IMG/VR virus record: IMGVR_UViG_3300048016_000141 | Span: 1 to 26,228 of that record | Reading direction: 5' to 3' (one strand) | DNA: 26,228 bases | DNA from: a virus | Shown: positions 2,238 to 23,738 of the stretch, piece after piece | How positions within the stretch are numbered: position 1 is the first letter of the stretch | Layout of the letters: the number at the start of each line of letters is the position of its first letter | Notes under the pieces: model-generated | What the model saw: only the letters and a program-made list of their open reading frames with translations | Databases searched by the model: none | What the model was told of the DNA's origin: nothing | Program-made: the position numbers and the translations under genes

Positions 2238-5200
2238 ATGCGGCAAATCCCACGACTTCTCATCAAGGCCGACGCAATTCCGGCTGACGCCCACTGGATC
2301 ACAGTCCATCCAAACGGCCCCGGGTCGAAGGGTCAGGCCGTGCTCATCCAGCCGCACCCGGATGGCTCTGCTCGCGTCATTGGTGGCGCTGGCGGCAGCT
2401 TGAACTACCTCAAGCTGCGAGGCGTTAAATCGCACTCTGATTACAAGGCTGAAGCCGGGAAAAAGGCCGCCGATAAGCGTGTTGCACGCAAAGAACAAAC
2501 CGCCGCTGACAAAGCCGCCGGCATCCATGGTGCCAAGGAGCAGGTCCGCAAGGACATTGCAGAGCAGCGCAAGAAGGCCGAGCAGTCGGTTATCAGCGCC
2601 GTCGCCAAAAAGGCAGGCTGGGCTCCCGAGGACATGGAGTTCCCCGAGGCCGACTACGAGCATTTATCCGAATCAGCGCGCGACAAGGTGCGGTCAAAAT
2701 TCCACCGCGACCTGCTCAGCAAGGCCAAGGAGGTAATCCAGCAGAGCCGTCAAATGCTGGTGATAAGCCCCGCCGCGCGTGAAGAGGCCGGCGTTGGCGA
2801 GGTTCCGCTGTTCTCCGATTCGCCTGATGAGGTGTCTGCCGCCGACCTTGACCCTGTTCGTCCGGTTGGTGCTGGGCTGGGGTTCCAAGCCGACTACAAA
2901 GGTCGTGCCGAGGCTGCCGGGCTGTCGCAGGAGAATCTCGAAGCCGAAGCGGCCGAAGTGAAAACGGGCGGCATGACGCCCGAGCAGCGCCAGAAGGCAC
3001 TGGCAAAAGGCGACGCCGCCAAACTAATCAAACAGGAGCTGGCTGGCATCAAGGAGCCCGCTGCACCAAAGGCTGACGCCAGCCTGATTTCCGCCAAGGA
3101 CGCCCTCGATCTGGTGAAGGAGGGCAAGAAGCTCGCACTCATCGAAAAGGCCGCCCGAGAGGCCAACGCCGACGTGGACAAGTCACCCGTGGAGCCCAAG
3201 GCATTCGTGCTGGAGACTACGGACGACGTGGACGCTTCGGTGCAGGAAGACCTCAAGAACGACCTACGCACCGCTCAGACCCGCGCTTTTCTGTCCGAAG
3301 TTGGCAAAATCGCAGGGGCTCAGCCAAACGAGACCTTGGGTGGGCACATGGGCGTTGGGGCGTACAACAGCATCAACGCACTGGCTATGGCCGTGGGTGG
3401 TGACGCCCTCGTGGATCGCTCCGTGGTGGACGTGCTGGGTGTGGCTGGCGCCGCTCAGGTGCTGGCGCGCCGCCTGCACTCCGACCTCAATCCTGACGAG
3501 GTTCAGCACGTCGCCGAGGGCATCCAGGACTGGCACGTCAACCACTACATGGCCACCAGCACCAAGGCGCTGAAGCAAGCGCGGGAGCTGACCGACGCCG
3601 CGGCCGCCATCGACCTCTCGGACGAGGCCAAAACAGGCGCCGACCTAGCGGTGGCCCAAGAGCTGAATTCGCGCCGCCGCGCTGCCGTCGGGGATGCTCA
3701 GCGCATCTTGGGGCAGGCATTGGGCGAGATGGAGGCGAACGCCGCACTGGTGGTTGCCATGAAAGGCCCGGGTTCCGGCGACTTTCAGGTATCCCTTGGC
3801 AACACGTCGCCCGAGGCTGCGATCACGCAGGTTCGGGCGATTGGGCTCCAGCCCGGCGACTACGAGCTGGAGAAAGTCGGTGGCGACACATTCCTCACCG
3901 TCACGCCTGCTGGCATGGCGCGCCTTGCCAAGCCCGTTGCGCGCGAGGACATTGCCCAAGTGCGGCGCAATCTGGCAATCATGCGCGGCGACCACGACGA
4001 GGACGGCTGGCTACCCATGGGCGTCGCCAATCGGCCCGACATGGTCATGGACGTGAAGTCTGGCGTGGCCGAGCGCATGGCGCAGCCGTTCCAGCCTGGT
4101 GAAGACCTGCAGGCCAGCCTGAAGACCTATATTGGGGCGCGGGCCGCAGACGGCGACGCTCCAGCCGACATCCTGTCCGACGTTCAATCCGCCGACTTCT
4201 TCCAAAAGGTCGGGGCAGGGCGCACGGAGGAATACCGCGCTGCGCTGGACGCCGTGGCCCCACTCAAGGGCGCGGACGGCAAGCAGCAGCGCGCTGAGGC
4301 GCTGGCTGACACCTTCGATAAATACGCCGACAGCCACGTGGCCGCCTTGGGAGGCGAGCGCACCACGCTCAACCGGCAGAAATTCCAGATTGACCAGCAC
4401 TCTGTGGACGCGCTCCACCGTGCGCTGGCGGAAACCCCAGAGGGCACCGCCGCCTACAAGCAAATCGGCGAGCTGACCAACAAGGACCAATCTGCCCTGC
4501 GCGAGCATTTTTACCGCCACATCGCCCGTGAGGACGCCGCCGCTGGTGCCATGCGCAAGGAGCTGGAGGAACACATCGCCGGCGAGCCCGAGAAAGAGTC
4601 TACCGATATGTTCGGGGACACTGTGCCCAACCCTGATTGGCAGGACTGGAAAACGCACCGCGACGGCATGGCTGCCAAGCTCAACGCCAGCAGCCTCACG
4701 TGGTCCAAGTACCTCAAGACAATGGGCGGCAACGAGCGTGCCTACGAAGCCGTGCAGGACGTTATTCGCTCGAAGATGGCCAGCTCGTTTATCGACGCCC
4801 ACAACAAGCTCAACCCGGACGCGCCCATGAAGCTGGGCAAGCGCACCATCCGAAACAACCTCAACCACTTGGACGCCGTTGACCCAGCCGCCCGCGAGGC
4901 TCGGCTGGCAAAGGACAAAGAGCTGGTGGACCGGCTGCGCAACCGGGTGGGTGGCAAGTATTCCAGCGGCTCAGTTGCCGACAAGATTGACGCCGCCAAG
5001 CAGGAGCAGGCCGCGTTTGAGCAGGCGCAGATGGGGTTCTTTTCGTCCGAGGACGCACCGGAGTCCACTGGACCCGGTCAGGACGGCGCTCCCGTGCCGC
5101 TGGGGGCTGACGAGCGCCACACCTTGGGGCACGCCGCCGAGCGGCAGATTGCGGCCATGGTGGGCCACGTTGGCGAGAATTTCAAACCCGGCCAGCCCAC

Positions 5201-6788
5201 GAAGCTATGGGGCGTATCCATGTCGGGCAAGTACGCCGCCCAGCAGCGCGCGATCAAGCTGGTAGCAGCCAATAAGCGCGCCATGCTGGCCGCCGGTGCC
5301 GGGTCAGGCAAAACCAACATGATGCTCGGTTCCCACGCGCACCTGTCTGGCATGGGAAAGGTCAAGCGGTCGATCATGATGGTGCCATCCGTCGTGCAGG
5401 GCCAATTCTCCGGCGAGGCATTGCGCCTGCTGGAACCCGGCAAGTTCAAGACCCACATTCAGCCCGGGGCGAGCCAGTCCGAGCGCATCGCAGCCTACAA
5501 GGACGCCGGCACGCACATTTGCGTCATGACCCACCAATCCTTCCGCGACGACATGGTGCACCTCGGCGCCAAGCACGCCGGAATTGACGAAGGCGCCATG
5601 ACGGCGAAGCTGCAGAGTATGAGCACCGACCAGCGGCGCGATTGGGCGGCTGGCGTGATGGGGAAAGAGGGTATCAACTTCGACGCTTCGTTTGTGGACG
5701 AGTCCCACGACACACTAAACCGGGCGGGGAAGGAAAATTCCAGCCTGGCCAACGTCATCGAGGCGGTCGGCCACCACACACCGTACCACGTGCTCTCGTC
5801 AGGCGACCCGGTAAAGAACGACGCCAGCGAGATTCACTCGATGCTGCAAAAGATGGACCCCAGCCGCTACGGCGACCGGGCGGCCTTCATGCGCCGCTAT
5901 GGCGCTGACACCATCGCCAGCAAGGAGGCGCTGCAGCGGGAAATGGCCCGCTACGTGTTCCCGACCTCCATCACGCCCGACGTCGCCGTCAGCCGCAGCA
6001 CGGAGACCGTGCCGCTGTCCAAGGGGCAGCAACAGGCTCTTGGTGAGCTCGACAAGCACCTGGCCCGCGCTCGCCTGGCGCAGCGCGCTGGCAAGGTGGA
6101 CGTGGAGGCCGTGCGCCACATCTCGCCCGGTTCGTTTGATGGTGTTCCCGAGGCGGAGCACGAGGCCGTGGCCGCCAAGCTGCAGAAGGCCGTGGGCATG
6201 CTCAAGTCGTCGGCGGTGAACCGCGTTATCAACACCCACCCCGACAACGCCAAGGTGCAGCGCGCCGTGGAGATGGTGCAGGCGCGGCCGGGCAAGCAGG
6301 GCGTGATCTTCGCCCGCAACCGCGAGGCCGTCAGCCAGTACAAGGCAGCCATGGAGAAGGCCGGGCGCAAGGTAGTGGTCATCACAGGCAGCGACAGCGC
6401 CAAGGAAAAAGACGCCAAGCGCCGAATGTTCAACCCGGAGCAGGGTGAGGCGCAAGCCGACGTGTTGATTGCGTCCGATGCTGGTGCCGTGGGCATGAAC
6501 CTGCAATCGGGCCAGTTCCTGATCCAGCACGATATCAGCCAGACGGCCAAGACGCACAGCCAGCGGAATGCCCGCATTCACCGCCTGGGGCAGAAGAATG
6601 GCGTGGAGCTGATCGACCTGCAGGGTGACCACCCGGAGGAACGCCGCAGCCGCGAGCGACTGGACCGCAAGTACGGACTCAAGAATATGATGGCTTCGCC
6701 GCTGGATGGGCTTGACGATACTGGCGTGGCTGGTGCCATTGCGGCCCGGCGCGCGGCAGCGCAGTCCGACCAGCAGGGTTTGTTTTGA
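2238..6788 (+). CDS. Giant polyvalent protein with C-terminal SNF2/DEAD-like helicase
   Basis: This is the largest gene of the window (1516 residues). The C-terminal third is a superfamily 2 helicase of SNF2 type: Walker A GAGSGKT at residues 1020-1026, Walker B/motif II DESH at 1154-1157, a motif V region (VGMNLQS) near residue 1416, and motif VI QRNARIHRLGQ at 1442-1452, a pattern typical of SNF2 proteins. The first 60 residues contain an HPNG...KGQAVLI...GGAGGSLNYLKLRG segment, a pattern I associate with phage head-region proteins, followed by a Lys/Ala/Glu-rich helical stretch. Residues 120-1000 are not recognised. It lies in the head cluster under its own promoter. By analogy with P1 DarB, a helicase-containing antirestriction protein carried in the capsid, it may be packaged and injected with the DNA to protect or process it. 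That role is inference; the helicase domain is clear. SNF2 proteins use ATP to move along double-stranded DNA. Confidence 0.85.
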   Translation: MRQIPRLLIKADAIPADAHWITVHPNGPGSKGQAVLIQPHPDGSARVIGGAGGSLNYLKLRGVKSHSDYKAEAGKKAADKRVARKEQTAADKAAGIHGAKEQVRKDIAEQRKKAEQSVISAVAKKAGWAPEDMEFPEADYEHLSESARDKVRSKFHRDLLSKAKEVIQQSRQMLVISPAAREEAGVGEVPLFSDSPDEVSAADLDPVRPVGAGLGFQADYKGRAEAAGLSQENLEAEAAEVKTGGMTPEQRQKALAKGDAAKLIKQELAGIKEPAAPKADASLISAKDALDLVKEGKKLALIEKAAREANADVDKSPVEPKAFVLETTDDVDASVQEDLKNDLRTAQTRAFLSEVGKIAGAQPNETLGGHMGVGAYNSINALAMAVGGDALVDRSVVDVLGVAGAAQVLARRLHSDLNPDEVQHVAEGIQDWHVNHYMATSTKALKQARELTDAAAAIDLSDEAKTGADLAVAQELNSRRRAAVGDAQRILGQALGEMEANAALVVAMKGPGSGDFQVSLGNTSPEAAITQVRAIGLQPGDYELEKVGGDTFLTVTPAGMARLAKPVAREDIAQVRRNLAIMRGDHDEDGWLPMGVANRPDMVMDVKSGVAERMAQPFQPGEDLQASLKTYIGARAADGDAPADILSDVQSADFFQKVGAGRTEEYRAALDAVAPLKGADGKQQRAEALADTFDKYADSHVAALGGERTTLNRQKFQIDQHSVDALHRALAETPEGTAAYKQIGELTNKDQSALREHFYRHIAREDAAAGAMRKELEEHIAGEPEKESTDMFGDTVPNPDWQDWKTHRDGMAAKLNASSLTWSKYLKTMGGNERAYEAVQDVIRSKMASSFIDAHNKLNPDAPMKLGKRTIRNNLNHLDAVDPAAREARLAKDKELVDRLRNRVGGKYSSGSVADKIDAAKQEQAAFEQAQMGFFSSEDAPESTGPGQDGAPVPLGADERHTLGHAAERQIAAMVGHVGENFKPGQPTKLWGVSMSGKYAAQQRAIKLVAANKRAMLAAGAGSGKTNMMLGSHAHLSGMGKVKRSIMMVPSVVQGQFSGEALRLLEPGKFKTHIQPGASQSERIAAYKDAGTHICVMTHQSFRDDMVHLGAKHAGIDEGAMTAKLQSMSTDQRRDWAAGVMGKEGINFDASFVDESHDTLNRAGKENSSLANVIEAVGHHTPYHVLSSGDPVKNDASEIHSMLQKMDPSRYGDRAAFMRRYGADTIASKEALQREMARYVFPTSITPDVAVSRSTETVPLSKGQQQALGELDKHLARARLAQRAGKVDVEAVRHISPGSFDGVPEAEHEAVAAKLQKAVGMLKSSAVNRVINTHPDNAKVQRAVEMVQARPGKQGVIFARNREAVSQYKAAMEKAGRKVVVITGSDSAKEKDAKRRMFNPEQGEAQADVLIASDAGAVGMNLQSGQFLIQHDISQTAKTHSQRNARIHRLGQKNGVELIDLQGDHPEERRSRERLDRKYGLKNMMASPLDGLDDTGVAGAIAARRAAAQSDQQGLF

Positions 6789-7276: not shown

Positions 7277-7298
7277 GTCGTGACGCAAGAATTCGCTC
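7277..7298 (+). promoter_or_regulatory. Late promoter, GTCGTGAC type (site C)
   Basis: GTCGTGAC at 7277-7284 is followed by AAGAAT at 7287-7292. The motif starts exactly 22 nt before the ATG at 7299, with no Shine-Dalgarno site. The first 16 bases are identical to site F at 22529. It would drive the protease-scaffold-capsid operon. Confidence 0.75.
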
Positions 7299-8207
7299 AT
7301 GACCAGCGAAGCGCAGCTGATTGCGGACCTCCCCGATTACCTCAGTATCGAAATGATGCTGAAAGCCACGCCTGCTCAGGAAGGCGGGAGTCGATTCGTC
7401 TATCTGGAGGCTTCCCGCGAGGCGCGAGACCAGCAGAACGAGATTGTTCTGGCAAAGGCTCTTGAAGAGTCGGCCGGGCACTACCTCAAGTTCGGTAACA
7501 TCGACCTCGACCACAAATCAATGCCAGCCGTCGCCAAGATGTACGGCATCGACAACCCAGAGCACTGGGAAATCGGCACGCCAGTTGATGTCCGTGTGAG
7601 CGGCGCATCTACCTTCGTGAAGGCTCAACTCTTTACCGGCGACACGCCACTAGCCAAGCGCGCAAATGAGGTGTGGGACAGCATGACGAAGCTGAGCCCG
7701 CCCCGCAAGTGGTACCCCAGCGTTGGCGGCAAGGTGTTAGCCAAGTCCACCCGCATCGACCCCGATACCGGCGACCGCGTTGGCGTCGTCAGTGGCGTGC
7801 GTTGGACAAACATCGCACTTAGCCAGCACCCGGTGAATCAAACCGTCGGTGGTGTGTCTACGATCCCTTTCGGTGTCCTGGCGAAGTCCTGGGGCGCGGG
7901 CGGCTTCGATATGGCCAAAGCCCTCGAAGCCTCTTACGCCACGGATGCCACAGCAAAAACCGGCGGAGCCGCTCTGACCACTCAGTCCTTGGACGGTGGG
8001 TCGCGCTCCCCGAAGTCATATTTCGACTTTCGTGAACGTCTCGCGGCCGCCGTCAAAAGCGGCAAGGTCAGCGACACGTCTGCGAATGGCTTGATGCACT
8101 ACAGCGCAGAAGCCTTCGTGCTCTCGCTCGATGAGTCGGCCGAGTGGGTGGATCGCTTTCTAGGTGATCTAAAATCAGGTCTTTCCAAAAACCGGAGAAT
8201 TAAATGA
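7299..8207 (+). CDS. Probable prohead (capsid maturation) protease
   Basis: The 302-residue protein resembles HK97-type prohead serine proteases. An N-terminal beta-rich domain carries D-L-D-H-K with candidate catalytic His72, then GTPVDVRV and a W-Y-P-S-V-G-G motif with candidate nucleophile Ser141. That His-then-Ser order is typical of the family. Residues 190-300 form a Ser/Gly/Ala-rich linker and a helical tail, which may interact with the scaffold. It would cleave the scaffold and capsid N terminus during maturation. Position supports the call: it is directly upstream of a scaffold-like gene and the capsid gene. ATG 7299 is supported by the promoter motif 22 nt upstream. The stop overlaps the next start. 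Confidence 0.65.
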   Translation: MTSEAQLIADLPDYLSIEMMLKATPAQEGGSRFVYLEASREARDQQNEIVLAKALEESAGHYLKFGNIDLDHKSMPAVAKMYGIDNPEHWEIGTPVDVRVSGASTFVKAQLFTGDTPLAKRANEVWDSMTKLSPPRKWYPSVGGKVLAKSTRIDPDTGDRVGVVSGVRWTNIALSQHPVNQTVGGVSTIPFGVLAKSWGAGGFDMAKALEASYATDATAKTGGAALTTQSLDGGSRSPKSYFDFRERLAAAVKSGKVSDTSANGLMHYSAEAFVLSLDESAEWVDRFLGDLKSGLSKNRRIK

Positions 8208-8877: not shown

Positions 8878-10386
8878 ATGGACGCTCAAACCTTGATGCA
8901 GCAGTTTGCGGGCATGGCCCCCGGCGGCAGCAATCCCTCCCTCGGCGCCTCTATGGGCGGCTCTTTGGACGCCATGGGCGATCTGAAGAAGGCCCTCGAA
9001 GCCAGCTCGTACCAGACCGACGTTTCCACCCTGACCGGTGGTGGCGCTCTGGGCGTGCAGTCTTTGGACACCGCCATGAAGACCACCATTCAGGAGCAGG
9101 AACACTTCGTGTTGTTCAAGCGCTTGCAGCAGACCAACGCGACTAACATCGTTGACGAGTACACCCGCCAGACTGGCATCGGTGGATTCCTCGGCGGTTC
9201 GACCAACTCCCAGATGGGTGTTGTTCGCTCAGCTCAGGGCGAGTACAGCCGTGAAGTTGGCATGGTCAAGTTCCTGATGACTTTGCGCCAGGTCGGCTAC
9301 GTGCTGAACATCGGCAAGAACATCGTGGAAGCCACCGCTGTGGAAGAGCGCAACGGCGCCCTGCAGTTGATGACCGACGCTGAGTACCTGTTGTTCTACG
9401 GAAACAGCAAGGCTTGCCCAACCGAGTTCGATGGCATCTTTGCCCAGATCGAAGCGGAAATCGAAGCCGGCAATGTGCCTGATTCCAACGTCGTGGACAT
9501 GCAGGGCCTGCCCCTGAATTCCGTGGAGCCTTTTGCCAAGATCAACGCTTCGGTGTTTGACTATGGTTCTTGGGGCCGCATCACCGACGTGTTCATGCCT
9601 ACTGCTGTGCAGACTGACTTGAACATGGGTCTGGACCCCGCATTCCGCTGGAGCCCAGATGGTGGCAACCAGAACATGGCAGTCGGCGCTCACGTGTCCG
9701 GCATTCGCCTGACCGAAGGCGTGTTGAAGACCAACATCGACACGTTCCTGCACCACGCAGACTTCGTGATGTCCAAGCCGTTCGAGGTGTCGCAGCCCGC
9801 ATTGGCCACGGCTAACAACACGTTCAAGCCTGCCGCAATTGGTGTTCTCGCCACAGCCGACGACGCAGCCAGCCAGTTCACCGCGCCTCGCGCTGGTAAC
9901 TACTACTACGCCGTCGCCGGCGTGGGCGGCGCTGGTCAGGGTCAGTCCACCATCCTGAAGTCCGGCCAGATCGCCGTGGCTGCAGGCAAGAAGGCTGTCG
10001 TGACTATCACTGTGTCCGCATCCGGCACCGAGACTGGCTACGCGATCTATCGCGGCCGCCAGAATGGTACCGACGGTACCAGCGACCTGCGCTTGGTGAA
10101 AATCATCCCCCGCACTGGTGCATCGACCGTGTTTACCGATTTGAACCGCGACATCCCTGGTACTTGCAAGGTGCCAGTGTTGAACCTGGCTCAGTCGGCT
10201 GATGCAATCGGATGGCGCCAGTTCCAGCCGATGACCAAGATTCCATTGCCTTTCGGCGTGGGTGGCGTGCCAGTGCAATCGTGGTTCCAGTTCCTCTTCG
10301 GTTTCCTGCGTGTGACCAAGCCGAAACATCATGGTTTCGTGAAGAATATTCTTCCCGCAACTAGCACATGGCGTCCGCACGGCTGA
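8878..10386 (+). CDS. Major capsid protein with Ig-like insertion
   Basis: The 502-residue protein is the likely HK97-fold shell protein. Its Gly/Met-rich N-terminal 50 residues could be a region removed on maturation. The central part (residues 60-300) contains segments such as QEHFVLFKRLQQTNATNIVDEY and NGALQLMTDAEYLLFYGNS, typical of a group of large phage capsid proteins. Residues about 315-427 are an inserted beta domain of Ig/fibronectin type (GNYYYAVAGVGG, TVSASGTETGYAIYRG, TVFTDLNRDIPGT), probably displayed on the capsid surface. The chain then returns to the core. A good ribosome site (AAGGA near 8868) precedes ATG 8878. A strong terminator follows the gene. Confidence 0.85.
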   Translation: MDAQTLMQQFAGMAPGGSNPSLGASMGGSLDAMGDLKKALEASSYQTDVSTLTGGGALGVQSLDTAMKTTIQEQEHFVLFKRLQQTNATNIVDEYTRQTGIGGFLGGSTNSQMGVVRSAQGEYSREVGMVKFLMTLRQVGYVLNIGKNIVEATAVEERNGALQLMTDAEYLLFYGNSKACPTEFDGIFAQIEAEIEAGNVPDSNVVDMQGLPLNSVEPFAKINASVFDYGSWGRITDVFMPTAVQTDLNMGLDPAFRWSPDGGNQNMAVGAHVSGIRLTEGVLKTNIDTFLHHADFVMSKPFEVSQPALATANNTFKPAAIGVLATADDAASQFTAPRAGNYYYAVAGVGGAGQGQSTILKSGQIAVAAGKKAVVTITVSASGTETGYAIYRGRQNGTDGTSDLRLVKIIPRTGASTVFTDLNRDIPGTCKVPVLNLAQSADAIGWRQFQPMTKIPLPFGVGGVPVQSWFQFLFGFLRVTKPKHHGFVKNILPATSTWRPHG

Positions 10387-10824: not shown

Positions 10825-10848
10825 AGCCGCCTTCGGGCGGCTTTTTTT
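10825..10848 (+). terminator. Terminator abutting promoter site D
   Basis: A 7-bp stem (AGCCGCC 10825-10831 with GGCGGCT 10836-10842) closes a TTCG tetraloop and is followed by a run of T to 10848. The promoter motif begins two bases later at 10850, the same terminator-promoter arrangement as at 617-644. Confidence 0.85.
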
Positions 10849-10849
10849 C

Positions 10850-10871
10850 GTCGTGATGCAATGATTGCCGC
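10850..10871 (+). promoter_or_regulatory. Late promoter, GTCGTGAT type (site D)
   Basis: GTCGTGAT at 10850-10857 is followed by AATGAT at 10860-10865, matching the invariant A and T of the set. The predicted transcription start (10872) is 4 nt before ATG 10876, so this is the one site where the start codon is not exactly at +22. An in-frame ATG at 10861 lies inside the -10 element and would not be transcribed. Confidence 0.65.
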
Positions 10872-10875
10872 CATC

Positions 10876-11955
10876 ATGCTCACGACCACACAGAACCTGC
10901 CAGCCACGCTGGCTGTCATCGTCACGGCCAGTGGCGCTGCCGTACCCATCACAGGCGCCGTGACGGCATCGGTCGTCTCCGTTGATGGCGTCACCGTCTA
11001 CGTGCCATCCAAGGCCGCCACGCTTGGCACTGCGCCTGGTGCTGTGTCTGTCGATTTGACCGATGCAGAAACCCTTGCGATTCCGACGGGCGACGCCCTT
11101 CTGGTGGTGGCGTGGTCCCGTGGCGTGAAGCGCTTTGCCGTCACATCCGTGGCGCTGGGTCAAATCGTGCGCTCGGCCCTGTTCATTCAGGACGTGGTCA
11201 TCGACAAGATTCGGGCGGACCGGCTCATGCTGCTGGCTAACTCGATCATGCCCGACCTGCAGGTGAGCGACGAGTACCTGTGGGAGAAGCTGCTCGCAGC
11301 AGAGGCCCATGTGGCGCATGCCCTGCGCATTCCGCTGGCGCCGACCCGATTCTTCCCACGCACACCAACCCCCGAGCAGATAGCCGCGCTGCCTGCCGGT
11401 ATGCCGTGGGACATCGACCCAGCCTACGATTACGACCCCGGCAACTACACCGGCGACAAGTGGGGAATGATCCTCACCCGTCAGAAGCCTATTCAATCCA
11501 TTGTCAGCATGAAATTCGTCTACCCGTCACCGGCGCAGACGATCATGGAGGTGCCGCCCGACTGGGTGCGTCACGACGGCAGGTACGGACAGGTGCAGAT
11601 CGTGCCCACGGGCACGGCGTACCAGACGTTGCTGGGCGGCATGTTCCTCAGCCACTTCTCTGGCGGACGCCAGCTCCCGTTCACCGTGGAGCTGGAATAC
11701 ATTGCCGGCCTGGCTAACGCCGCCCGCGACTACCCGGACCTGATCGACGCCGTGCAAAAAATGGCAGTGGTCAAGATCGTGGAGGATGGCTTCATGCCTC
11801 AGTCCGGCTCTATCAGCGCCGACGGCCTGTCGCAGAGCTTGTCGGTTGACGCCAGCAAGTACCACGATGCCGTGGACACCATTCTCAACGGCTCGGCTGG
11901 ATCGAATGGCGGCCTCATGGCGCGCATTCACGGCGTGCGGATGGTGGTGATCTGA
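10876..11955 (+). CDS. Probable head-tail connector (adaptor) protein
   Basis: From ATG 10876 the protein has 359 residues; an upstream ATG at 10861 adds five but lies within the promoter element. The N-terminal 90 residues are a beta-rich domain (LTTTQNLPATLAVIV...). The rest starts with a helix and continues with DEYLWEKLLAAEAHVAHALRI, which resembles gp6-like head-tail adaptor proteins that bind under the portal. The C-terminal part is beta strands and a helix (IDAVQKMAVVKIVEDG). It lies after the capsid genes and one base overlaps the next start (TGATG), so the two are coupled. The adaptor call is based on position and partial resemblance. The N-terminal domain is not recognised. Confidence 0.5.
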   Translation: MLTTTQNLPATLAVIVTASGAAVPITGAVTASVVSVDGVTVYVPSKAATLGTAPGAVSVDLTDAETLAIPTGDALLVVAWSRGVKRFAVTSVALGQIVRSALFIQDVVIDKIRADRLMLLANSIMPDLQVSDEYLWEKLLAAEAHVAHALRIPLAPTRFFPRTPTPEQIAALPAGMPWDIDPAYDYDPGNYTGDKWGMILTRQKPIQSIVSMKFVYPSPAQTIMEVPPDWVRHDGRYGQVQIVPTGTAYQTLLGGMFLSHFSGGRQLPFTVELEYIAGLANAARDYPDLIDAVQKMAVVKIVEDGFMPQSGSISADGLSQSLSVDASKYHDAVDTILNGSAGSNGGLMARIHGVRMVVI

Positions 11956-12596
11956 TGCGGTTCAATTCGTCGGCGTTTGATCGCCACCTATCCAACATCG
12001 GACAGTCCGTGGACTGGCGGCGCTCCTATGCCTGTGCGTGCGTCAACCCACAATCAGGCGCGGCCGACCCGAAGCACATACTGTGCTCCGGCAAGGGCCG
12101 CCTGTGGGATGAGCCCGTGCGGACGGTGACCGGCATCGCGGGGCAGGAGACATTGGCGGAGTGGGCGCAGTCCGGGCAGTGGGAGTCCGGCGACACCGTG
12201 CTCAGCATTCCCCAGTCCAGCCCGTTGTGGGACGCCGGCCAGTTCGACCGCGTTGTCATGCTCAACGCCACCGATGTGTTCAGCCAGCCGCTGCTGCGTG
12301 GTGCGCCTGCGGAGCGCCTGATATTCGCAGTGGCCAGCGTCACGCGATGTTTCTGGCTGCATCCGACCACTCGCCTTGTTGTGGAGGGCGGTTTGCCGGT
12401 GATCGGTACCGACGGTCGCCCCACGTGGCCCGGCGGCGTGGGCGAGCCGCCTGCAGGCACCAGCTACTCCCTGACTGGGACGCGGTATCTTGAATATTTC
12501 GTGTGGGCAGCTCTGCCCAGTAATCGGAACATGCACAGCGGCATGCGCCTGCCCAAGAAGGTAGTCGCCCGCAAGTGGGACTTGTTCAGCCGCTGA
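11955..12596 (+). CDS. Probable head-closure/neck protein
   Basis: The 213-residue protein has a Cys-containing N-terminal segment (Cys27, Cys29, Cys44 in CACVNP...HILCSGKGRLWD) and then a beta-rich domain (GDTVLSIPQSSPLWDAGQFDRVVMLNATD) of the kind seen in head-closure or connector proteins. It starts at the last base of the connector gene stop. Its last 11 bases overlap the 3' end of the minus-strand gene, so the two are convergent. Function is inferred from position between adaptor and tail terminator genes. Confidence 0.5.
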   Translation: MRFNSSAFDRHLSNIGQSVDWRRSYACACVNPQSGAADPKHILCSGKGRLWDEPVRTVTGIAGQETLAEWAQSGQWESGDTVLSIPQSSPLWDAGQFDRVVMLNATDVFSQPLLRGAPAERLIFAVASVTRCFWLHPTTRLVVEGGLPVIGTDGRPTWPGGVGEPPAGTSYSLTGTRYLEYFVWAALPSNRNMHSGMRLPKKVVARKWDLFSR

Positions 12597-13458
12597 TCGT
12601 CTTTTTCACGGCGGCCGCAAACGCCGCCTCGGCCTTGGGCTGCATGGCCTGGGCGACACCTCTGGCGAGGAACTTGCCGGGCTGCGCCGGGATGACCCAC
12701 TTGCCGGTTGCGCCCTCCATCATGATTCTGAACGTCATAAGCTGAGACGACTTTCCGCCGCCCGGCGTGCTGGTGTCCATGCGAACCATGCCCGCGTAGC
12801 GTTTCGCTGACGCCGCGTCCATCCCTGCGCCTTTGAGCGCCCCCATCGTCAGTCTGCCGCCCCATGCGTACTTGCGGGCTGCCACCATTGAGGCCTGTTT
12901 TGTCTTTGGGTTGCTTAGGAACGGTGTCTGCTTGCTGGCCGCCGACATGCCGGATTTCGGGGACAGGTTCGTGACCTCCCCGCTGGGGCGTTGCCCCATG
13001 GAGACCACGCGCGACGGCGCCATGGCCGATGCGAGGTTGTGTACAGCGGCTGGCACTGCGCTTGCGTGCGCAGTGTTACCCGGGGTGTTATGGCGCATGG
13101 GTATGACCAGAAACCGGCGCCCATCCTTGGTGCGCCTGACCTTCTGGCTTGTCAGTAGCATCTGCTTTAGGTCGCGTGGCCCGCGCCCGGTTTCGATCTC
13201 GGCGGCGTGCTTGTAGTCGGTTTCGACCATCGCGCTAAAGTCGCCCGTCATCTGCCACTTGATGCTCTGGGCGTATGCGTCCTTTTCCCCGCTCCATAAC
13301 TTGGCCTGGTGCACGGCCTTCTGCCAATCGATTGCAGTCTGTTGCGCCACAGCGCGCACAGCCTGGTTTAGTAGCGGCATCACCTGAGAATTGATGCCTG
13401 CCGCGAGTTCGAGCTGGGCACCGGCGGAGAACGTGATCGTGTAGCTGAGTGCACTCAT
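12586..13458 (-). CDS. Minus-strand head-tail completion-like protein
   Basis: The 290-residue protein lies on the minus strand in the middle of the plus-strand neck module. It resembles HK97 gp10-type completion proteins in outline: a helical start (NQAVRAVAQQTAIDWQKAVHQ), basic segments (VRRTKDGRRFLVIPMRHNT), a Ser/Ala-rich middle, and a C-terminal MTFRIMMEG...GKWVIPAQPGKFLARG followed by a helix (PKAEAAFAAAVKKTI). ATG 13458 is supported by a promoter motif placed exactly 22 nt upstream on the same strand. Its 3' end overlaps the closure gene by 11 bp. The middle (residues 125-215) is a long insertion relative to gp10 proteins of about 120-170 residues. The gp10-like call is tentative. Confidence 0.6.
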   Translation of the reverse strand: MSALSYTITFSAGAQLELAAGINSQVMPLLNQAVRAVAQQTAIDWQKAVHQAKLWSGEKDAYAQSIKWQMTGDFSAMVETDYKHAAEIETGRGPRDLKQMLLTSQKVRRTKDGRRFLVIPMRHNTPGNTAHASAVPAAVHNLASAMAPSRVVSMGQRPSGEVTNLSPKSGMSAASKQTPFLSNPKTKQASMVAARKYAWGGRLTMGALKGAGMDAASAKRYAGMVRMDTSTPGGGKSSQLMTFRIMMEGATGKWVIPAQPGKFLARGVAQAMQPKAEAAFAAAVKKTISG

Positions 13459-13480
13459 GTCTTGATTGTGTTGTCACGCC
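13459..13480 (-). promoter_or_regulatory. Late promoter on the minus strand (GGCGTGAC type)
   Basis: Read on the minus strand, GGCGTGAC (13480-13473) differs at one base from the plus-strand motif. It is followed by CACAAT (13470-13465) with the invariant A and T, and begins exactly 22 nt before ATG 13458. No Shine-Dalgarno site precedes that ATG. It lies back to back with site E (13483), two bases apart. Confidence 0.65.
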
Positions 13481-13482
13481 CG

Positions 13483-13504
13483 GTCGTGATGTAAAAATTC
13501 GGGC
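13483..13504 (+). promoter_or_regulatory. Late promoter, GTCGTGAT type (site E)
   Basis: GTCGTGAT at 13483-13490 is followed by AAAAAT at 13493-13498. The motif begins exactly 22 nt before GTG 13505, which selects that GTG over the ATG at 13514. It forms a divergent pair with the minus-strand copy and would drive the neck and tail operon. Confidence 0.7.
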
Positions 13505-14341
13505 GTGATCTCCATGGTGCAACCACTCCACGTCGGCAATGCGCTGCGGCTCTTTATCGAGCCGCCAGCTGGTGCCGTCCGGTGGAAGGTGCTTCGCAAG
13601 GGGTCTAATACATTTTCCAGCCACGACGACGCATCGGCGGTCGTGGCCTATGAGGGTGACGAGCGTGTAATCGTTGACTCTGCCTTCCTGCAAAATCAGG
13701 TGATGGCCTTCTATCGGCCGTTCTACACGTCCGATGGCTTGGTCTGGACGGCTGGACCAACGGCCAGCGGCACGCCTGATGCTATCTATGAGGACATGAG
13801 CGTCGACGTGCTGTCGGTGCTCCGTCAACGGATTGAGTCCGGCCTCCTGGTGGAGTGCCAACGCGGCAACTTCGCCACCGAGCTTGGTTACATCCAGGTT
13901 TACACCGCATCCCCGTCGCTTGAGCGCGACCTGGCCATGCCACTCGTGACCGTGCACCTCGAAAACGAGGAACCCGGCGAGCGGTTTGTTGGCGAGGACA
14001 TGATCGGCGACCAGTTCGACGAGATTGGCGGCGATTGGTCAGAGTCCGAGGGGTGGCTGGCAAACGTCAGCGTGACCCTGATCGGCTGGAGCTTGAACAG
14101 CGACGAGCGGCTGGAGCTTCGCAAGGCCATACGACGGATCGTCGTGGCAAACCTGCCGGTGTTCGCTGACGAGGGGTGGCAGCAGTGCGGCCTGTCGCAG
14201 CAGGACATTGATGCCGTCAACGGCGAGTATCCCGCTCACATCTACCAGGTGATGAGCACGTTCACCTGCCTTGCCCCGGTTCGCGTTGCGGGTCGAGTGA
14301 ACAGCGTCATCAACGAAGTAATTTTAAGGAGCGCCAATTGA
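13505..14341 (+). CDS. Probable tail terminator protein
   Basis: The 278-residue protein has an N-terminal beta-rich domain (residues 5-85, with ALRLFIEPPAGAVRWKVLRKG). A C-terminal domain (residues 98-278) follows, starting with DVLSVLRQRIESGLLVE and including MPLVTVHLENEEPGERF and SVTLIGWSLNSDERLELRKAIRRIV. That helix-then-sheet layout and the position directly before the sheath gene suit a tail terminator (gpU-like), which caps the tail and joins it to the head. GTG 13505 is preferred because of the promoter spacing; ATG 13514 is the alternative. The stop overlaps the following TTG start. The extra N-terminal domain is unusual for a terminator. Confidence 0.5.
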   Translation: MISMVQPLHVGNALRLFIEPPAGAVRWKVLRKGSNTFSSHDDASAVVAYEGDERVIVDSAFLQNQVMAFYRPFYTSDGLVWTAGPTASGTPDAIYEDMSVDVLSVLRQRIESGLLVECQRGNFATELGYIQVYTASPSLERDLAMPLVTVHLENEEPGERFVGEDMIGDQFDEIGGDWSESEGWLANVSVTLIGWSLNSDERLELRKAIRRIVVANLPVFADEGWQQCGLSQQDIDAVNGEYPAHIYQVMSTFTCLAPVRVAGRVNSVINEVILRSAN

Positions 14342-22528: not shown

Positions 22529-22550
22529 GTCGTGACGCAAGAATGGCGGG
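22529..22550 (+). promoter_or_regulatory. Late promoter, GTCGTGAC type (site F)
   Basis: GTCGTGAC at 22529-22536 is followed by AAGAAT at 22539-22544. The motif begins exactly 22 nt before the ATG at 22551. The first 16 bases equal those of site C at 7277. The short spacer GGCGGG before the ATG is not a good ribosome site. It would drive the late baseplate operon to the end of the window. Confidence 0.75.
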
Positions 22551-23738
22551 ATGATTGACCGCCCTGCGCCCACAGAACAGCGAGCCGGAGTTCGTCCGAT
22601 TGCGTTCGCGTTGGACAACGTGGGCGCCGTTGGGCGCGCGGTCAGCCTCAATATTCGACCCGAAGACCTGACCCGCAACGAGCCTTCGCGCTCTGCCGTG
22701 CACCAGACGCTGGCGCATGGCGACGTCAAAGGCTGGGTTGACAACTTCGGCGCCGGGATGCCGTCGCTTACGATCTCCGGACACACCGGCTGGCGCCAGG
22801 CGCTGGGTACCGGGATGGACGGCGCTCAGGCGTTTGACGCCCTGAATCAGCTTGTGGTGCACGACTACCACGACGCCAAACAGTCGGCGATTGATTACGG
22901 TATCGACCCTGCGCTCGTAAAACTTCTTTTTATTGACACGCTGGACAACTTTGCGTGGTCCGTGGTGCCGACTCAGTTTGTGCTGCGTCGCTCCAAGTCG
23001 CGGCCTCTGCTCTGGCAGTACAACATCACATTGCAGGCCGTCAGCACGTCGGTGTCGGCGTCCGTGAAACTCGGGCCCGGCTACGGAAGCCCGGCCAACG
23101 GTGTTATTGCGCTGGATCGCACAATCGGCCGCTTGGTGTCATACCAGCCCAACGTAAAGAGCTGGGTTGACGAGGCGCTGGGCGCTGTTGACGGCGTATT
23201 CTCTGGGGTTTCCGAGGCAATTGCCGGGTTTGTGCTCACGACCAATGGCGTGTTGAGCTCGGTTCTCAGCGTGCTGCGTGACTCAAACAACTTGGCGACC
23301 GGCGTCGGCAACCGCTTGATTTCGGTGGCCAGTAGTCTGGCTAGTGTCGGGTTGAACGTGTTTCGAGTCGTGAGTTCGATTGCTGGATTGCCCGGCGACA
23401 TTCGCTCCAAAATTTCAAACGTCGCCGCAGCCTACAACGAGGCCCTGTGCATTTTCGCTAACAGCCTGCGCCCGCGCAAAGTCTACGAGCAGTACACGGG
23501 CCTTTACGGGGCATCGAATTGCTCCAGCACGACTGGCGGCCGCCCATACAGCCCGTATGCCAACCTCAACGTCTTCGAGCTGATGACGCCCGACAAAGGC
23601 CCTGTCTCGGTTACTAGTGCAGCGCGTGGCAGCATATCGACTCTGGTCGGCATGGACCCTGTGCTGGCTCCTGTCCCCATGGGTGAAATCGGTCGGTTGA
23701 CCTCGGTCATATCGGGCGGCGTGGGGGTGGCAACGTGA
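22551..23738 (+). CDS. Tail/baseplate protein of unassigned family
   Basis: The 395-residue protein has an N-terminal domain (residues 25-165) with LNIRPEDLTRNEPSRSAVHQTL, GWVDNFGAGMPSLTISGHTGWRQ, and a final RPLLWQYNITLQAV. This pattern occurs in phage baseplate proteins near the hub and in proteins annotated as LysM- or gp53-like, but I cannot name the exact family. The rest is a helical region with hydrophobic stretches (residues 205-300, LTTNGVLSSVLSVL) and a Gly/Ser-rich tail. ATG 22551 is supported by the promoter spacing. The stop overlaps the next GTG start. A hub-associated or tail-tube-initiator role is inferred. Confidence 0.6.
   Translation: MIDRPAPTEQRAGVRPIAFALDNVGAVGRAVSLNIRPEDLTRNEPSRSAVHQTLAHGDVKGWVDNFGAGMPSLTISGHTGWRQALGTGMDGAQAFDALNQLVVHDYHDAKQSAIDYGIDPALVKLLFIDTLDNFAWSVVPTQFVLRRSKSRPLLWQYNITLQAVSTSVSASVKLGPGYGSPANGVIALDRTIGRLVSYQPNVKSWVDEALGAVDGVFSGVSEAIAGFVLTTNGVLSSVLSVLRDSNNLATGVGNRLISVASSLASVGLNVFRVVSSIAGLPGDIRSKISNVAAAYNEALCIFANSLRPRKVYEQYTGLYGASNCSSTTGGRPYSPYANLNVFELMTPDKGPVSVTSAARGSISTLVGMDPVLAPVPMGEIGRLTSVISGGVGVAT

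Follow-up and report, generated by a model that had tools for sequence, protein, structure and literature searches.

Only 46 bp separate the start codons of two oppositely oriented genes in the neck region of IMG/VR virus record IMGVR_UViG_3300048016_000141, and we asked whether this gap holds a divergent promoter pair. The record is a viral fragment of 26,228 bp (the window, at its full length) that comes from the head-neck-tail region of a myophage. Its kin are phages of ~90 kb: Pseudomonas phages Dolphis, Jeremy and Touem01, Bordetella phage PHB04, Aeromonas phage ST4, Yersinia phage fHe-Yen8-01 and Enterobacter phage phiT5282EW. The gap (13459-13504) lies between the minus-strand start codon ATG 13456-13458 and the plus-strand start codon GTG 13505-13507. 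Its plus strand reads GTCGTGATGTAAAAATTCGGGC, followed by GTG, and its minus strand reads GGCGTGACAACACAATCAAGAC, followed by ATG. As an earlier sequence-only reading had claimed, the gap holds one promoter motif per direction, at 13480 and 13483 and two bases apart (13481-13482), each with its start codon 22 nt on. The plus element is GTCGTGA-N4-A-N3-T and the minus element GGCGTGA-N4-A-N3-T, with one mismatch to the consensus GTCGTGA. The plus, or neck-gene, promoter would thus span 13483-13504, with GTCGTGA at 13483-13489 (-22 to -16), a -10-like AAAAAT at 13493-13498 and a predicted +1 at 13505. The minus promoter would span 13459-13480 on the minus strand, with GGCGTGA at 13480-13474, a -10-like CACAAT at 13470-13465 and a predicted +1 at 13458. 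We consider it likely that the gap carries a back-to-back pair of promoters, each complete and independent of the other, and that both belong to a phage-specific late class used by host RNA polymerase together with a putative phage factor. Initiation would fall on the start codon, with C at -1 and A at +1 (G at +1 for the GTG of the window), so both mRNAs would be leaderless.

To compare this gap with its relatives, related loci were fetched with the minus-strand protein as query (52 viral loci and 6 on bacterial contigs, with contigs titled Oxalobacteraceae, Microvirga, Mesorhizobium and Paraburkholderia among those fetched), and 51 of them were scored for the promoter pair. All counts come from kin sequences, and sites are partly dependent even with near copies removed. 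The neck-side motif was exact in 50 of the 51 loci, and both motifs were present within one mismatch in 43. By eye, a looser minus-gene motif could be seen in L028, L038, L039, L042, L049, L063 and L070, and neither motif in L066. The 5' ends of the two motifs were 0-16 bp apart in nearly all loci. A fixed helical spacing between the two promoters was rejected on these distances, and since the spacing varies, the two motifs are separate elements.

We characterized the class as a whole from 184 distinct exact-core sites, drawn from 57 loci and phage genomes by a search that itself imposed A-11 and T-7. A start codon with an open frame followed at 21-26 nt in 108 of these sites (77 at 22 nt, 24 at 23, 3 at 25 and 4 at 26), and 105 of the 108 starts were ATG. 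At the sites with 22-nt spacing, position -1 was C in 85% and +1 was A in 98%. The -10 of the class is sigma70-like (xAxxxT, typically CANAAT, at -12 to -7), and in a set picked without the A-11/T-7 requirement these positions were still A in 35/37 and T in 34/37. The site profiles showed no -35 signal at -37 to -30. Among 71 exact sites in seven sequences, 26 had an ATG at offset 22 and 7 had one at offset 23, with ~0-6 at most other offsets; a further ATG peak at offset 14 is formed by the AAT of the -10 itself and the following G. The full pattern, namely the motif with at most one mismatch, both A-11 and T-7, and a 22-nt distance to a start codon, occurred 7 times in the window, where Markov shuffles gave an expectation of 0.1, and 2-8 times in the whole genomes of relatives, against 0.2-1.0 expected. 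Six of the seven window matches precede real genes, starting at 666, 2238, 7299, 13505, 22551 and, on the minus strand, 13458; the seventh (minus strand, 11436) looks like a chance match.

A fixed distance to start codons could also be the mark of a translation element, for example a distal extension of the Shine-Dalgarno (SD) sequence whose GUGAU/GUGAC would base-pair with AUCAC close to the 3' end of 16S rRNA. The bases are indeed complementary (GUGAU to AUCAC), and ordinary SD sequences are missing: SD-like 4-mers preceded 2 of the 108 leaderless-class genes, compared with 22 of 40 other Dolphis genes. However, for such pairing the motif would have to lie ~12 nt closer to the start codon, A-11 and T-7 are conserved as in a -10 element, and the motif is kept where a full SD (AAGGAGGT) is interposed before the start codon. 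We therefore rejected this explanation, to which we give hardly any chance. In nine relatives (L035, L037, L041, L047, L049, L050, L077, fHe-Yen8-01 and phiT5282EW) the minus gene has a shifted start codon, and an SD is found at the predicted +1 or a few bases from it; past this +1, L035, for example, reads AAGGAGGTTCGGATG and L050 reads AAGGAGGTACTTCGTATG. The tree requires 4 switches between the leaderless and SD-led states of this gene, of which at least 3 fall on well-supported branches. Because SD leaders begin at or near the predicted +1 where the start codon is displaced, the motif appears to be a transcription start signal and not a translation signal; a role in translation would hardly account for this pattern. 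Conservation across the 51 loci, the strict 22/23-nt spacing, the CA initiator, the lack of an SD and the SD leaders near the predicted +1 all support the divergent leaderless pair that the sequence-only reading had proposed.

Public annotations, made independently, also support the predicted start. In Dolphis, the annotated starts of gp6 and of an ADP-ribosyltransferase fall exactly on the predicted +1, and those of the portal and the protease fall 1 nt after it. Dolphis gp15 is annotated from 14482; since the conserved leaderless start is at 14320 (L005:14298-14482), its public start appears to be ~54 codons too short.

Some observations weigh against a leaderless promoter pair. First, 76 of the 184 exact-core sites lack a start codon in the 21-26 nt range, and in 28 of these 76 an SD follows further on; leaderless initiation is thus not universal in the class. 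Second, the window has a weak -35-like TTGTCA 16 nt before the plus -10, although it is not conserved. Third, the plus gene begins with GTG, which is rare in the class (3 of 108).

The two promoters of the gap differ in a consistent way. The neck promoter was an exact GTCGTGA in 43 of 43 loci scored, and other leaderless sites were exact in 39 of 44. The minus promoter was exact in none of 40 loci, where we found GGCGTGA (18), GACGTGA (8), ATCGTGA (7) and other variants, all of which keep the GTGA that was a requirement of that count. The minus promoter is thus off consensus across loci, at a conserved position. The sequence-only reading is supported as regards the pair; it had overlooked both the mismatch in the minus motif and its conservation. 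The lack of any exact copy could suggest that only the plus promoter is real and that the minus motif is a decayed copy, but in most of the 51 loci the motif keeps its distance of 22/23 nt to the start codon or to the beginning of an SD leader, and the minus gene is conserved together with its start. We regard decay as highly improbable. The asymmetry may instead reflect selection for a weaker minus promoter. In one locus (L034, ~9940-10001) the minus-gene motif occurs in two tandem copies, GTCGTGTCACGACGCT and ATCGTGACAAGAAGAT, before the minus gene. Mecenats66 has a variant of the neck promoter only (ATCGTGATGGGATAAT, with ATG at 20 nt), and the leaderless class is absent from it.

How would such promoters be read? 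Each would consist of GTCGTGA at -22 to -16 and a sigma70-like -10 at -12 to -7, with no -35. The form of the -10 suggests transcription by host RNA polymerase with host sigma70, and a phage-encoded factor may contact GTCGTGA in place of a -35 element. Judging from the genes served, the class would be late. With motif 5' ends 0-16 bp apart in nearly all loci and no -35 in the profile, little DNA upstream of -22 would be free for such an element. The upstream regions of the two promoters would lie in each other's DNA, and simultaneous occupancy of both promoters in the window by polymerase is therefore probably impossible. The off-consensus minus promoter would be expected to initiate less frequently than its exact counterpart on the plus strand.

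The same architecture can be viewed in two other ways. GTCGTGA might be a repressor operator laid over ordinary host promoters, as relatives carry integrases and annotated repressors. The element is nevertheless held at a fixed phase to the -10. A conserved -35 is missing, and positions -15/-14 are mostly CG rather than the TG of an extended -10; ordinary host promoters at these positions would therefore be weak unaided, and we find an operator very unlikely. Alternatively, one contiguous 16-bp element without a -35 could be a promoter read by an RNA polymerase of the phage itself, single-subunit or novel, or by a phage sigma factor. A T7-like polymerase domain (RNA_pol, PF00940) was found in 0 of 22 genomes, recognisable Sigma70_r2 in 0 of 22 and Sigma70_r4_2 in 0 of 17, with the T7 positive control and the sigma controls detected. 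The -10 moreover resembles that of host sigma70. A phage polymerase or sigma is thus unlikely, although a diverged or unrecognised one could have escaped these searches, and host RNA polymerase assisted by a phage factor is the reading we prefer.

Candidates for this factor were sought among phage proteins. The P1 protein Lpa had no phmmer match in six-frame open reading frames of 7 related genomes, although a very diverged homologue could escape such a search. AraC-type, TraR/DksA-like and HTH46 proteins were rejected as a universal factor, as they were not found in fHe-Yen8-01 and phiT5282EW. Outside virion and replication genes, the Dolphis proteins common to all compared kin genomes were gp82, gp83, gp84 and a small helix-turn-helix protein. 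The adjacent cysteine-rich gp82 and gp83, a zinc-protein pair, were present in 22 of 22 genomes (Dolphis L006:33307-33579; fHe-Yen8-01 L013:6249-7144), and we treat them as candidate regulators. Leaderless motifs occurred in 34 of 38 IMG/VR records found through gp82, the other four being fragments of <17 kb, and a reversed control pattern occurred in none. Conversely, records picked by motif alone contained gp82 in 14 of 28 cases, including 9 of 9 of at least 70 kb; those below 70 kb were mixed, and one 69-kb record lacked gp82. Leaderless motifs were absent from P1 and from Mecenats66, yet the latter has gp82. The link between gp82 and the motif is an association within one lineage and does not imply function. 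The gp82 structure model (pLDDT 86) gave no significant match among solved structures and no known fold. Searches of Pfam, PHROGs and NCBIfam gave no match for gp82, and likewise none convincing for gp83.

The nearest parallel is found in phage P1, whose Lpa-dependent late promoters occur several times per genome with a sigma70-like -10, an element centred near -22 and no requirement for a -35, and include the divergent late pair LP26/LPpmgL (PMC10695390). The GTCGTGA class shares the sigma70-like -10 and the absence of a conserved -35. In P1, however, this element consists of a 9-bp inverted repeat such as AAGTGACTT, which lies 4 bp from the -10 in LPpac, whereas GTCGTGA is a non-palindromic 7-mer at -22 to -16, 3 nt from the -10-like hexamer, and the inverted repeat is absent. 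Furthermore, LP26 and LPpmgL share one -22 repeat while each neck-gap promoter owns its motif, and the P1 late promoters sampled have leaders while those of the neck gap are predicted to be leaderless. A phage-specific short late motif close to the start site is also a feature of the late promoters of AR9 and phiKZ non-virion RNA polymerases. The AR9 late motif is AACA-N6-TA/G, with leaders of 26-491 nt (PMC5312081). Those promoters need phage multisubunit RNA polymerases, and the GTCGTGA class differs in having its start codon at the predicted +1. Literature searches for the motif string returned nothing pertinent, the Mecenats66 paper discusses the phage group and does not mention promoters, and we found no description in the literature of late gene expression in this ~90-kb myophage group. 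Among leaderless mRNAs, that of lambda cI from PRM has its start codon at the 5' end. It encodes a single regulatory gene, in contrast to the genome-wide GTCGTGA class, which serves structural genes.

The minus-strand gene (12586-13458, 290 aa) is real, since its product matches phrog_16819 (E 6e-56) and it is conserved in relatives found by tblastn, with an invariant Met1 in a 7-phage alignment. The start that the sequence-only reading had assigned to it is supported by the comparison of the promoter pair across loci. Its product is probably a neck or tail-completion protein of the HK97-gp10-like type, with weak fold matches to HK97-gp10 models in BFVD and to the SaPI1 neck chain 9mu2_P (E 0.83, prob 0.87); the earlier label of a neck module fits these matches. 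The minus gene is the only reversed one in the structural block and runs, at its stop, 11 bp into the convergent gene 11955-12596. The plus-strand gene (13505-14341, 278 aa) is annotated as a head-to-tail adaptor in Dolphis, Jeremy and ST4. Its GTG aligns with ATG in most relatives, and its promoter leads into the sheath/tube operon.

Elsewhere in the window, plus-strand promoters of the same type stand at 644-665 (before gene 666-1823), 2216-2237 (before gene 2238-6788), 7277-7298 (before the head maturation protease gene 7299-8207) and 22529-22550 (before gene 22551-23738 of the baseplate region). The product of 2238-6788, behind its leaderless promoter, is a 1,516-aa SNF2-type helicase; the annotations of PHB04 and Mecenats66, but not those of Dolphis, Jeremy and ST4, include a helicase gene of comparable size and position. 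Another plus-strand site, with an exact motif, lies at 10850-10871 (predicted +1 at 10872). The gene behind it probably starts at ATG 10876, 26 nt on and with a 4-nt leader, rather than at the first in-frame ATG 10861, because the latter lies upstream of the predicted +1. The T-tracts of terminator-like hairpins directly adjoin two of these promoters (hairpins 617-637 and 10825-10842, within 617-665 and 10825-10871), so that one unit ends where the next begins, and similar T-tracts precede GTCGTGA sites in PHB04 and Touem01.

Altogether, it is possible, though tentative, that the zinc protein gp82, perhaps with gp83, redirects the host's RNA polymerase to GTCGTGA promoters without a -35 late in infection, with initiation at the start codon, in alpha-, beta- and gammaproteobacterial hosts. 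The neck gap would then be a two-way promoter, conserved and fixed in its strong/weak asymmetry. The conserved contrast between an exact and an off-consensus promoter in this gap is new. A single 16-bp element that places +1 on the start codon would allow precise start-codon annotation, and the gap would represent a compact two-way promoter. The relatives form a natural series: behind a single promoter, the leaderless form of one gene alternates with its SD-led form. The class makes the missing transcription factor directly testable.
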